Shown: positions 41,228 through 45,177 of the stretch, in pieces
How the letters are laid out: every line of letters starts with the position of its first letter
How positions within the stretch are numbered: position 1 is the stretch's first letter
Source of the DNA: Chromobacterium subtsugae
Lineage (GTDB): Bacteria; Pseudomonadota; Gammaproteobacteria; Burkholderiales; Chromobacteriaceae
NCBI RefSeq assembly: GCF_001676875.1
Contig: NZ_JYKA01000005.1
Span: forward strand, 248,001-312,000
DNA length: 64,000 nt
Direction of reading: 5' to 3'
Program-made: the position numbers and the translations under genes
The notes under the pieces: generated by a model
Database searches by the model: none
What the model saw: the letters and a program-made list of their open reading frames with translations, nothing else
What the model was told of the DNA's origin: nothing

Positions 41228-41257
41228 AGCGGAAGCCTAGCGCTTCCGCTTTCTTTT
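41228..41257 (+). terminator. Rho-independent terminator of cdd
   Basis: AGCGGAAGC and GCTTCCGCT form a perfect 9-bp stem around a 5-base loop, followed by TTCTTTTTGT on the plus strand. It lies 30 bases past the cdd stop and just before the stop of the convergent DUF2063 gene. Confidence 0.9.
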
Positions 41258-41270
41258 TGTCCGCGCCGGC

Positions 41271-42116
41271 TCAAACCGCCTCGCGGCGGCGCACCAGCCC
41301 CAAGTCCTGCGCCGTCGGCAGCCAAGCGGCGGCCCGGGCGCGCAGCCAGGCCGCCTCTACGCCGGCTTGCTCGGCCGCCTCGGACAAAGCCTTTTCGCCG
41401 CCGCCCAGCCGCGCCATAGCCTGCAACAACTCGAATTGCCACGGCTCCAGCTCGTGCGCGCTCACTCGCCATTGCCGCCGCGCCAGCGCCAAGCGCCCTT
41501 CCGCCAATGCCGGCACCGCCAGTCGCTGTCCGCGCTGCAGCTCATGCCAGCAGGCCAGGAGCGGCAGACTGGTTTTCAGCAGCCGCACGCTGTCCGGCAG
41601 CGCCATGCCGGCCAACGGACTCTCCGCGCCCAGCAGGACCAGCCAGTCGTCGAATGGCGGCGGCGACGCGCCCTCCACGCCTTCCGCCCGGCCTATCTCG
41701 GCATGGGCCCGCTCCAGCCGCGCCAGCTCCACCGGCAGCCGGCACTCCGCCGCGTCCGGGTCTGGCTGGCTGGCCGCCAGAAAATCGGCGAAATCCGCGC
41801 CCAAGTCATGCAGCGACGGCGAGCGCGATGGCCGCGACGCGATGTAGCCGCGCGCCAGCAGGTCGAACAAGGGCTGGCCCAGCAAGACGAGCAGCATCGG
41901 ATAGTCGGCGCGCAGGCACTCCAGCAGCCGCGCCCAATAGCCATGCTGATATACGCCGATGCGATCGCGCCGCTTGCCGCGCGGCGGCTCGGCCACCAGG
42001 TCTTCGCCCAGCCCGCAGCGGGACCGCGCCAGCGCCAGGCCCTGCTCCAGCGCGCCGCCGGCCGTCATCGCCGTCAGCAGCCACGTCTGGCTGTCAAGCA
42101 AGGCAGGCCGGCTCAT
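41271..42116 (-). CDS. DUF2063 protein, partner of the MNIO enzyme
   Basis: A 281-residue protein with no signal or membrane segment. The N-terminal half ([19 protein letters not shown], then [29 protein letters not shown]) matches DUF2063, an all-helical domain that in RiPP-type systems recognises the precursor and hands it to a DUF692 enzyme. The start at 42116 overlaps the DUF692 gene by 23 bases, so the pair is translationally coupled; the frame open to 42221 lies wholly in shadow of that gene. In bufferin-type operons the equivalent gene is BufC. Confidence 0.87.
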
Positions 42117-42978
42117 GGCTTTCCTTTCCTCCCGGCAGCGCCTGCGGCGCGTATTCGGCCAGCAAGCGCCTGGCCTTGTCCAATTCTGCCAGCAGCTCCG
42201 GATACGGCGGAATGTCGGCATCCCACTCCAGCAGCGTGCTGACGCCGCCGCAAAGCCGCTGCGCCAAGAGGTAGAGCTGCCAGACGCGCTCCGGCACCGG
42301 ATGGTCGTGGGTATCGATCAGGCAATCGCCGCAGTCGCTCGGCCCTGCCAGGTGGATTTGCACGATATGGTCGGCCGGCAGCTGGCGGATATAGTGCTCC
42401 GGATCGAAGCCGTGGTTGTAGCCGGAAACGTAGACGTTGTTGACGTCCAGCAGCAGGCCGCAGCCGCATGCCTCGGCCAGCCGGGACAAAAACGCCCATT
42501 CCGGCATCGTGGAGTGGGAAAACTGCAGATAGCTGCTGGGATTTTCCAGCACCAGCGGGCGGCCCAAAAAGTCCTGGACCTGCAGCACGCGGTCCCGCAC
42601 ATGGCGATAGCTTTCCTCGGTCAACGGCATCGGCAGCAGGTCGTGGGAATTGACCGACGCCACGCCGGTCCAGCACAGGTGGTCGGACAACCACGCCGGC
42701 CGCAACTCATCGGCCAGCCGGCGCAGTTGTTCCAGATAGCCCCGGTTCAGCGGGTCGCTGCCGCCTATCGACAGCGACACCCCATGCATGACGATGGGAA
42801 CCTGCTGCCGCAGCTGGTCCAGCATGTGCCGGGCGTAGCCGCGGTGGCCGATGAAGTTCTCGCTGATGATCTCGAACCAGTCGACGCCGGCGCCGTGCTC
42901 GGCAAGGTGCTGGAAATGCACATTGCGCAAGCCGACGCCGAAGCCCAGGTTCGGCAAACCCAAACGGGGCAAGGTCAC
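42094..42978 (-). CDS. DUF692 multinuclear non-heme iron oxidase (MNIO)
   Basis: A 294-residue TIM-barrel enzyme of the MbnB/TglH/BufB family, which oxidatively modifies cysteine and other residues in ribosomal peptides with a cluster of two or three iron ions. The family's metal-binding positions are all visible: His65 ([10 protein letters not shown]), His100 (LSDHLCW), Glu145-Asn146 (LENPSSY), Asp178/Asn180 ([10 protein letters not shown]), His209 (IHLAGP), Asp222-His224 (DTHDH) and Glu251 (EWD). It lies 13 bases downstream of the ferritin-like cysteine-rich protein gene and upstream of DUF2063. The substrate is inferred, not shown. Confidence 0.92.
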
Positions 42979-42991
42979 ATCGCGCTCCTTT

Positions 42992-45025
42992 TCAGGTCGA
43001 GGGCGGCAGGGCCACCCGCAGCGGCGTAGGCGTCGGCGGATCGCCGGCAGGTTTGCCGCCGCTGGCGGCCATCACTTCGCGATAGGCTTGCCAGGCCTTG
43101 TCGTATACCGATTCGCCGACGGCGAAATCCAGCGTCTTCGGCAACGGCTCGCTGGCATGCATCGGTCCGACGAATTTGTACAGCAGCATCGTGCCCTGGC
43201 TAGGGAACAATTGCGACGCCGAAATCGGCACCGCGCAGCCGCCGAAGCTGGCGCACTTGTTGTCGCTTGGCGCGCTGAAGGCATCCGTGGGCGGGGTTGG
43301 CTCCGGCGGCATGCAGCACTGCGCGCCGGCGGCCGCGTTCAAATTCGGCGCGGCGCGGCGCATCGCCGAACAGGAGCCGCCGCCCTTGTCGCTCTGCACA
43401 AAGCCGCAGCCGCCTTCCGCCTTGCAGCTGTTGGAGCCGCGGCAGGTGTGGTAAACCTCGATCGCCGCGCAGGTTTCCCCGCTTGAGCCGTCCAGATTCA
43501 TGCCCTGGCATGCGTGGTACAGCTTGCCGGCTTCGCGCTGCCCGACGCCCAGCGCCAGATTGGGCGCCTTGCCCAAAGCCGCCCAGCACAAGGAAACGCG
43601 GTCGCCCGAACCCACCATGGAAGGATATGGAAAAGTGGTCTGCTGCTTCTGCCAGTAGGTGTTCAACACCGTGGTGACGCCGGCGATGGCGCCCGCCGAT
43701 ACGAAGCTCAGCACCCGGAACATCGACGGGTCCTGCTTCAGCGTGTTCAGCGCGTCGGCCACTTGGCTCGGAGACGGGATGTTCTTCGGCGCGATGGCCG
43801 GGTCGTACGCCGGATTTTTCAGCATGTCCGCCGTCCAGCGATTGCCTTTGGCATGCCATTGCTCCCAGGTTTCCACCTGCCGCAGCAACGCGTACAGTTC
43901 GGCGAAACGCTCGTAGTGGGTCCAGGCGGCGCTGTCGCAGCGCGCGGCGGCATCGGCCGACGGCACCGGCTTGCCGGCGCCGTCGTAGGACGGATAGTCC
44001 ACCTCCAGCGCCTTGCGGTCCTCGCGGTAGGGCTCCTTCACTTCTTGCAGCATGCCGCCGCGGCGATAGCGACTGAGGCTAGTCTGCGCGCCCTCGCCCT
44101 GATCGGTGATGGCCGCCATCATGTCGATGGCCTTGTTGAACGAGCGATCTTTGCCGCTGAAGTCTTCCGGGACGAACAGCGTCGACAGCTGCGGAAATTC
44201 CCGCATCGGGTGGCCGCCGCCCTGGGCATTGAACAAATCCTGCTGTACCGAATTCGCCCCTGCCGTCACCCCTGGCTGGTCTGCGCTGGTCAGGTAGTCC
44301 CACAGCGACTTGCCGCTGGCGTATTCGATGCTGACATATTGGGCCAAGCACTCGTACATCCAGCCTATGGTGCCGAACAGCGGCAGGTTCTGCACCCCCA
44401 TGTCCGGCTTCCAGCCGGCGAAAGGCACTTTCGGGAAATACTTGGCCTGCACCGGCGGCGGCTGCCTGGCCAGCTCGGCCCGCGCCGCGCCTTCCGGCTG
44501 CTCGATAGCGCGGAACAATTCGATCTGGTTTTCGTTCAAGGCCTCCAGATTGACCCGCACCTTGTTGTAGGTGCTGGTATCGCGCAGGTCGATGATATGC
44601 GGCAGCATCGACTGCTGCGGCCCGTAGCAGATCCAGCCCAGCCGCTGGTCCACCAGTCCCGGCGGCGTGAAGTCGGGCTGCACGCCCATCGCCGTGGCCA
44701 GGTTGGCCGCCATCTGCAGATGCAGCATTTCCTGGATGAACACGCTGAAAATGACATTGAACGCGCGCTCGTTGCTGTTGCGCGGCTGGCTGACGGGCGC
44801 GGAGCCCGGCCATTGGCGGCCGCGATAATAATCCAGGTTCTTGCTGTTGATCTGGTGGGTGCCCTGAATGGAGTACATGGTGGTCATGTACAGCGGGATG
44901 GTGAACAACTCCACGCTGACCGCAGCCTGAATGATGGCGCGGGCCGCCGACTTGTCGCTTTCCAACTCGTTCAGGCTGCGATCGGTGATTCGATTCAAAC
45001 TGGCGCCGAGAACAGGAATTTCCAT
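42992..45025 (-). CDS. Ferritin-like protein with cysteine-rich C-terminal region, candidate MNIO substrate
   Basis: A 677-residue protein without a signal peptide. The N-terminal part is a ferritin-like fold of the VioB/StaD type: [12 protein letters not shown] (Glu39) and [14 protein letters not shown] (Glu99, His102) are likely metal ligands. Between residues 506 and 597 lie ten cysteines, in motifs such as [13 protein letters not shown] and [15 protein letters not shown]. Near the end is a short globular domain. AGGAGG five bases before the ATG fixes the start. It is the first gene of a three-gene unit with a DUF692 and a DUF2063 gene. The function is unknown; metal or metabolite oxidation and being a modification substrate are both inferences. 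Confidence 0.82.
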
Positions 45026-45151: not shown

Positions 45152-45177
45152 AAACCCGCCGGCAAACCGGCGGGTTT
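45152..45177 (-). terminator. Rho-independent terminator of the FAD oxidoreductase gene
   Basis: AAACCCGCCGG and CCGGCGGGTTT form a perfect 11-bp stem around CAAA, followed by TTCAC on the minus strand. It lies 27 bases past the oxidoreductase stop and isolates the ferritin-like/MNIO unit from upstream transcription. Confidence 0.85.

Follow-up and report, generated by a model that had tools for sequence, protein, structure and literature searches.

A ferritin-like protein of Chromobacterium subtsugae with a bufferin-like cysteine module as the putative in-place substrate of a neighbouring MNIO enzyme

A stretch of 64,000 nucleotides from Chromobacterium subtsugae (assembly GCF_001676875.1, contig NZ_JYKA01000005.1, positions 248,001 to 312,000), called the window below, contains a unit of three successive minus-strand genes encoding a large ferritin-like protein with a cysteine-rich segment, an MNIO enzyme (DUF692) and a DUF2063 protein (Table 1). 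The reading favoured here, at a probability of roughly 0.7, is that a dedicated MNIO acts in place on a bufferin-like module of this cytosolic ferritin-like protein and probably converts cysteines there to copper-binding thiooxazoles. A preliminary description of the unit had proposed its C-terminal segment as the MNIO substrate. This proposal gained support from genomic comparisons, from a split form of the unit and from a link to the BufA2 bufferins, and was corrected in one respect, as the candidate part is internal to the protein (about residues 503-608).

The split version of the unit, which is new here, provides what we regard as the strongest evidence that the segment may be the substrate of the enzyme. 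When 399 genomes of the order were searched with the full-length profile, at most three candidates being scored per genome, eight gave a match: two carry fused proteins (the window's own genome and G663), one a divergent fusion (locus L091 in G560), one a ferritin-like protein without the other genes (G519) and four the split type (G664, G540, G588 and G622; 4/399). In the split loci, a ferritin-like protein of 422-432 residues is followed by a separate cysteine protein of 157-172 residues, the MNIO and the DUF2063 protein, and the small protein occupies the usual position of a bufferin precursor. As a separate cysteine protein stands here before the same enzyme pair, the fused segment would correspond to a free precursor. 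HHalign aligned the fused segment to the split small proteins plus the divergent fusion with a probability of 98 (pairwise E 2.7e-13), and to the four split proteins alone with 97.6 (E 3.3e-12). A profile of the split protein gave ten weak matches over 369 genomes of the class, comprising two more fused proteins (L137 and L140) and eight short proteins that are BufA2-like by motif.

The fused form is conserved as a unit. A pattern scan of one genome per species (84,980 species), limited in reach to close relatives, yielded 58 loci encoding a relative of the large protein. The earlier question of whether homologues occur apart from a DUF692 gene can be answered from these loci: the full-length homologues keep MNIO and DUF2063 genes directly downstream on the same strand in 57/58 cases, and the exception (L047) is truncated by its contig end within the large gene. 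A chance neighbourhood is rejected by this constant gene order. The loci were found in Chromobacterium, Janthinobacterium, Massilia, Undibacterium, Ralstonia, Caulobacter, Sphingomonas, Vibrio, Motilimonas, Pokkaliibacter and Marinobacterium; the rows include many near relatives of one another, with L089, whose contig has the same length, probably a repeat of L046. The large protein is also encoded on two Pseudoalteromonas plasmid records, with the unit confirmed in the one that was fetched. Within the family the full-length protein occurred in 5/61 genomes, within the order sample the fused form in 2/399 plus the divergent fusion, and the segment profile matched 2/398 genomes of the phylum sample. 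This patchy distribution suggests horizontal spread, and the surroundings of the unit vary by genus. Both observations would also be compatible with a ferritin-like protein and an MNIO pair that are neighbours only through spreading as a unit and are functionally unlinked, an explanation we consider very improbable in view of an order conserved across many genera, the dedicated MNIO clade described below and the occurrence of one module in fused and split forms. No other shared neighbour, including a protease or exporter gene, stood out across the loci in a crude clustering of open reading frames, which recovered even the MNIO in only 28/58 loci owing to antisense frames and could miss a rarer shared gene.

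Relatives of the large protein without the module behave differently. Ten such stand-alone loci (L088 and L096-L104; about four independent lineages, with eight loci from Chromobacterium in two near-copy groups of five and three, and with three comparable Rhizobium plasmid matches outside the count) carry no MNIO or DUF2063 gene in flanks of about 3-4 kb (10/10). The MNIO thus goes with the module rather than with the ferritin-like domain.

The ten cysteines previously counted in residues 506-597 are indeed present, at positions 506, 519, 528, 534, 540, 552, 570, 571, 591 and 597, and their conservation, a point raised in the preliminary description, is high. In an alignment of 61 rows, from which five loci repeating the window or other rows were omitted (L001, L003, L005, L006 and L014), seven cysteines (C506, C519, C528, C534, C540, C591 and C597) are invariant, while C552 is found in 53 rows and C570 in 58. 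Of the pair C570/C571 one member is conserved, and which one differs between alignments; as only one of the two is kept, nine of the ten cysteines count as conserved (53-61 rows). When five rows are added, of which L087, L137 and L140 are distant, C506, C528, C540, C591 and C597 are present in 66/66 and C519 and C534 in 65. Invariant positions of all kinds are densest in residues 503-545 (16/43) and 585-608 (15/24) and absent from 546-584. The AlphaFold model of the large protein (43 rows; mean predicted local distance difference test score, pLDDT, 78.4; predicted template modelling score 0.83) shows order in the ferritin-like part and, towards the C-terminus, in a hairpin and a helix, with most of residues 519-606 at pLDDT <50, which includes most of the two best-conserved stretches. 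Strict conservation without a confident structure would be expected of a segment that is processed or loaded with metal.

Downstream of the module, a hairpin, a helix and a tail ending in PPST are conserved; in L137 and L140 the tail ends in IPN and PPN instead. A GxxVxxxA stretch behind the cysteines of the fused protein aligns with GKSVWVRA of the split protein, and this stretch with its helix is the best candidate docking site for the enzyme pair. Neither Pfam nor NCBIfam gave any direct family match to the module of the window protein. No signal peptide was seen in the N-termini of the window's large protein and the split small protein; these were judged by eye, and in a crude hydropathy count the groups were not cleanly separated. 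In Sphingomonas, the part behind residue 485 is expanded to up to 19 cysteines and up to seven CGxP motifs (L056 5935-8253; L052 5977-8313); many of these motifs lie in CGTPTP-like repeats and may be extra modification sites.

The relation to bufferins was assessed with both forms of the module. BufA2 (NF050166) was the sole NCBIfam match of the split small protein at E up to 1, with 20.4 bits (E 4.3e-4) against a cut-off of 60, and the window protein and its C-terminal part gave no match to this model. The E value of 4.3e-4 is weak by itself, since an irrelevant Pfam family, PRR18, reaches E 0.0023 with the same protein. Compared directly with 25 BufA2-type peptides, the split module scored 45.8 (E 2e-8), where none of 100 column shuffles exceeded a score of 18.1, and its score with BufA1 (14.2) stayed within its own shuffles (maximum 18.7). 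On this comparison the split small protein is a predicted relative of the BufA2 bufferins, a relationship that is new here. For the fused module the link to bufferins runs through the split form, because its direct scores, given further below, are marginal and unspecific. The Sec signal peptide of BufA2 proteins was seen, by inspection, in neither the window nor the split proteins. Among the repeat types tested as common in captophorin precursors is NACKG (PMC13097082).

The enzymes of the fused and split loci point in the same direction. The window's MNIO matches PF05114 with 350.6 bits (cut-off 25) and the NCBIfam model MNIO_BufB (NF050167) with 350.7 (cut-off 310). Its residues H65, H100, E145, D178, H209, D222, H224, E251 and D253 align with 3bww, in agreement with the complete DUF692 ligand set reported initially; each is kept in at least 97% of 60 family rows, and all are invariant in an 18-row alignment. 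Some of these His, Glu and Asp residues would be the iron ligands, with D253 as the catalytic base. A quick tree without bootstrap was built from 53 MNIOs (27 from fused loci picked from more than 60, four split, one divergent fusion, 12 BufA2 and nine BufA1), omitting BufA loci for which the fetched stretch contained no complete MNIO frame or the peptide missed the motif filter. All 32 enzymes of the fused, split and divergent loci fell into one clade (Shimodaira-Hasegawa-like approximate likelihood ratio 99), which adjoins the BufA2 MNIOs, with the BufA1 MNIOs as outgroup. The residue following the catalytic Asp is Ala or Gly in 32/32 of these rows (Ala254 in the window), whereas it is Asp in 10/12 BufA2 MNIOs and Thr in 6/9 BufA1 MNIOs. 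This site has been linked to the choice of residues around the cysteine (PMC13097082); the Asp by which that work recognises MNIOs of Cys-Lys captophorins is replaced by Ala in the window. By tree and signature residue, a dedicated MNIO clade for fused and split loci is thus delineated, and is new here. In 300 genomes of the order, eight MNIOs scored at least 485 bits against the clade profile and the next 437, a gap that is partly built in because the profile itself contains five of these eight enzymes. A ferritin-like and a cysteine partner accompany seven of the eight. In support of a joint history, the distances between MNIOs correlate with those between large proteins (r = 0.886, 60 protein pairs).

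The DUF2063 protein (PF09836, 67.1 bits; cut-off 27.2) is predicted from its model (pLDDT 91.8) to be a bona fide PME-type 1 partner with an RRE-like second domain. The model matches TglI of the TglHI holoenzyme (8hi7, 8hci) and NGO1945 (3dee) at E 2.3e-4 or lower, and more weakly the leader-binding RRE protein TbiB1 (E 0.77) and PqqD (E 1.0). DUF2063 partners are reported to accompany precursors exported by Sec (PMC12452194), and the unit departs from this correlation, as no signal peptide is apparent by inspection in its large protein or in the split small proteins.

The ferritin-like domain matches PF12902 with 90.3 bits (cut-off 22.3), and in a Foldseek search the sole structure at E <0.001 was 3hl1, a PF12902 protein of Caulobacter (two chains; E 5.6e-9). 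Six residues, E39, E99, H102, E175, E311 and H370, the last just beyond the domain, are identical in 18/18 fused, split and stand-alone relatives and would fit a dimetal site. In the ferritin tree the fused and split proteins lie apart, with stand-alone ones between them on long branches; as an approximately unbiased test with 18 rows does not reject a single clade (p 0.43), two separate recruitments of the domain are not claimed. The window's own genome also encodes a shorter stand-alone PF12902 protein without cysteine module or MNIO neighbour (G000:C34:265593-265952, L097).

These properties of the domain bear on the main rival explanation, in which a second tailoring enzyme, the ferritin-like domain, is fused to the precursor on which it acts: the MNIO would act first, the dimetal domain would oxidise the product further, and the peptide may then be excised. 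The split loci carry the ferritin-like protein as a separate, enzyme-sized gene before the precursor, the six possible metal ligands are common to all aligned relatives, and PF12902 is also present in VioB, an oxidative biosynthetic enzyme, although the split ferritin-like protein reaches only 30.9 bits against the VioB (TIGR04492) cut-off of 1250 and the window protein has no match to this model at E up to 1. A precedent exists in the borosin methyltransferase, which is fused to its precursor (PMC7878506). On the other hand, the clustering of neighbouring genes brought out no shared protease or exporter, and conserved sequence lies on either side of the segment, with a conserved tail at the end of the protein. 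Because of these flanks and this tail, a retained domain fits better than an excised peptide, and tailoring in cis by the ferritin-like domain is considered unlikely.

Several observations weigh against modification of the module by the dedicated MNIO. A search with the split profile misses the window's own large protein at E 0.001. Scored directly, the fused segment is only marginal with BufA2 (24.9; shuffle maximum 24.7), and as it also exceeds the shuffles with BufA1 (19.8; maximum 17.8), its bufferin signal is not BufA2-specific; none of the fused proteins tested has an NCBIfam bufferin match except the divergent L091 (E 0.063), and the split protein has a chance-like Pfam match to PRR18, which weakens its BufA2 E value when this is taken alone. 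L087 and L140 each lack one otherwise invariant cysteine. The stand-alone control reduces to the four or so lineages mentioned, the correlation of MNIO and large-protein distances given above is uncorrected for species descent, and the published association of DUF2063 with exported precursors (PMC12452194) is broken. Finally, one clade MNIO that is not in the profile (G636) has neither a ferritin-like nor a cysteine protein adjacent. Its pair with DUF2063 lies near G636:C1 1206130 (L175 / L151), downstream of an NAD synthase gene and a short fragment with a TnpB/Cas12f-type zinc-finger domain (PF07282, just over the cut-off), and neither the full-length nor the split profile matches anything in that genome at E 0.001. 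The substrate gene was probably lost or displaced at this locus, which nevertheless makes the association less than perfect.

The solitary G636 enzyme would also suit an explanation in which the MNIO has another target and the cysteines of the segment simply form a metal site of ordinary type (zinc, iron-sulfur or disulfide), and the cysteines and HxC motifs would suffice for such a site. This is improbable given that the protein is paired with the MNIO in 57 of the 58 loci, that the ten module-less relatives examined have no MNIO nearby, that the split form places the module at the precursor position, and that the module appears related to BufA2, whose partners are MNIOs.

Under the favoured reading, in-place modification by the dedicated MNIO, the three-gene cassette would be self-contained, its large gene joining a dimetal-type PF12902 domain to a cytosolic module that descends from a BufA2-type bufferin. 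Once the large protein is translated, the DUF2063 partner with its RRE-like fold would dock it, perhaps via the helix behind the cysteines, and the MNIO would oxidise some of the conserved cysteines in place, in the cytosol and on the nearly complete protein. The likeliest modified cysteines are those in HxC[RK]GSNxCxxxGGCGF and [15 protein letters not shown]. The products would be thiooxazole-type groups with a loss of 4 H (-4 Da) per site, as reported for a captophorin (PMC13097082). A cytosolic protein would result in which a Cu(I)-binding thiol/thiooxazole site is tethered to the dimetal domain; possibly redox-active, it would probably capture or oxidise copper or iron. Copper is the first candidate because bufferins chelate excess copper (PMC12452194). 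A further step is put forward tentatively and seems somewhat more likely to be wrong than right: an enzyme-installed thiooxazole metal site would be a permanent part of a cytosolic dimetal protein, a once-exported bufferin having become the cofactor domain (or the cis substrate) of a ferritin-like oxidase, with the dedicated MNIO as its maturation factor.

The MNIO work considered here deals with small precursor peptides. That MNIOs may also modify whole proteins has been suggested in a landscape study of the family (PMC12452194), and the present unit suggests that here the MNIO/DUF2063 pair modifies a whole protein and not just a small peptide. It offers a widespread test case in which one substrate exists both fused and split, the enzyme clade has its own residue at the specificity site, and the ferritin-like relatives that lack both module and MNIO form a natural control group. 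If true, a modification known from ribosomally synthesized and post-translationally modified peptides would be used to mature a metalloprotein. Bufferin fusions have been published before, and a ferritin-like one was not found described in open-licence PubMed Central: a search there, in which part of the articles was judged by title and abstract start and the supplements of PMC12452194 were not covered, returned no fusion of DUF692/MNIO with a ferritin-like protein (or VioB). The term ferritin is absent from the main text of PMC12452194, the passages of PMC12636315 and PMC12538549 that were consulted hold nothing on such a fusion, and a Caulobacter copper paper that seemed to pair DUF692 with a ferritin-like protein has the term only in its reference list. 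The short families adjamnio-1 and adjamnio-I of PMC12452194 may hold the split small protein, which could thus have been listed under another name.

As regards the layout of the unit, the minus-strand order of the trio, its coordinates, the 13-base gap, the 23-base overlap and the AGGAGG ahead of the first ATG given in the preliminary description all proved exact, and the ferritin-like, DUF692 and DUF2063 assignments agree with Pfam (for the MNIO also with NCBIfam). The terminators said to flank the unit have to be revised. The T-run of the hairpin at 41228-41250 is on the plus strand, so this hairpin reads as a terminator of the convergent plus-strand gene and not of the unit; the one near 45152 follows the upstream gene as judged by eye and is unlisted in the terminator scan.

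Table 1. Positions of the genes and protein features of the unit in the window.
Feature	Position	Strand	Remarks
Large protein, 677 aa	42992..45025	-	Ferritin-like domain fused to a putative BufA2-like cysteine module
MNIO (DUF692, PF05114), BufB type, 294 aa	42094..42978	-	GTG start; catalytic Asp253 followed by Ala254
DUF2063 partner, 281 aa	41271..42116	-	Predicted RRE-like C-terminal fold, PME-type 1
Ferritin-like domain PF12902	44075..44932	-	Residues 32-317 of large protein
Cysteine module	43202..43519	-	Residues 503-608; proposed MNIO substrate; mostly low-confidence in model
Helix behind cysteine module	43064..43117	-	Residues 637-654; aligns with a stretch of the split small protein
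Conserved tail ending PPST	42995..43024	-	Residues 668-677; C-terminus of large protein

Within the unit no small gene resembling a bufferin was seen, as had been noted. The same genome holds one further MNIO, together with genes for two DUF2282/BufA1-type peptides, DUF2063 and DoxX (G000:C1:447000-457500, L075; Pfam), and as that enzyme sits with its own BufA1-type peptides, the MNIO of the unit is a second, separate enzyme. A missed small precursor was rejected, the BufA2 model having only two matches in the genome, both in the BufA1-type pair on contig C1. The split-protein profile also found nothing there, which is no strong test since even the window's own large protein was missed. The closest named matches are from C. 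sinusclupearum and C. alticapitis (79-80% identity). Neighbours were named by NCBIfam at seven loci (L067, L019, L023, L053, L056, L028 and L030) plus L089 and L074. In Ralstonia sp. A12 (L067 10428-14074) the unit is convergent to CusA/CusB/CusF-type copper efflux genes; this copper neighbourhood was found at one locus only and was not used as evidence.

Among known systems, the unit resembles most the BufA2-BufB-BufC loci of Cys-Lys captophorins (captophorins being peptides in which an MNIO installs a 5-thiooxazole), with which it shares motifs of the NxCKG and NxCxxxGGC kind, a precursor gene directly before MNIO and DUF2063, and an MNIO above the BufB cut-off. It differs from them in that the module is fused to or lies beside a ferritin-like protein, no signal peptide is seen, the cysteine spacing is changed, the score is below the BufA2 cut-off, and Ala or Gly instead of Asp follows the catalytic Asp. 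The published fusions of bufferin domains (MerC-Buf1/Buf2, Buf1-cytochrome c-FGE-sulfatase and Buf_EGKCG-EF-hand; PMC12452194) likewise join a bufferin domain to a larger protein of metal-related function, whereas the partner here is PF12902, with an MNIO clade of its own and no signal peptide or membrane anchor seen. Borosins also combine a catalytic-looking domain and a putative modified segment in one chain, but their domains are unrelated, and here a separate MNIO is the expected modifier. With VioB/RebD-type and other PF12902 proteins (3hl1) the large protein has in common the fold and, in the aligned relatives, the Glu/His set, while the ten stand-alone relatives have neither the cysteine module nor the MNIO neighbours.

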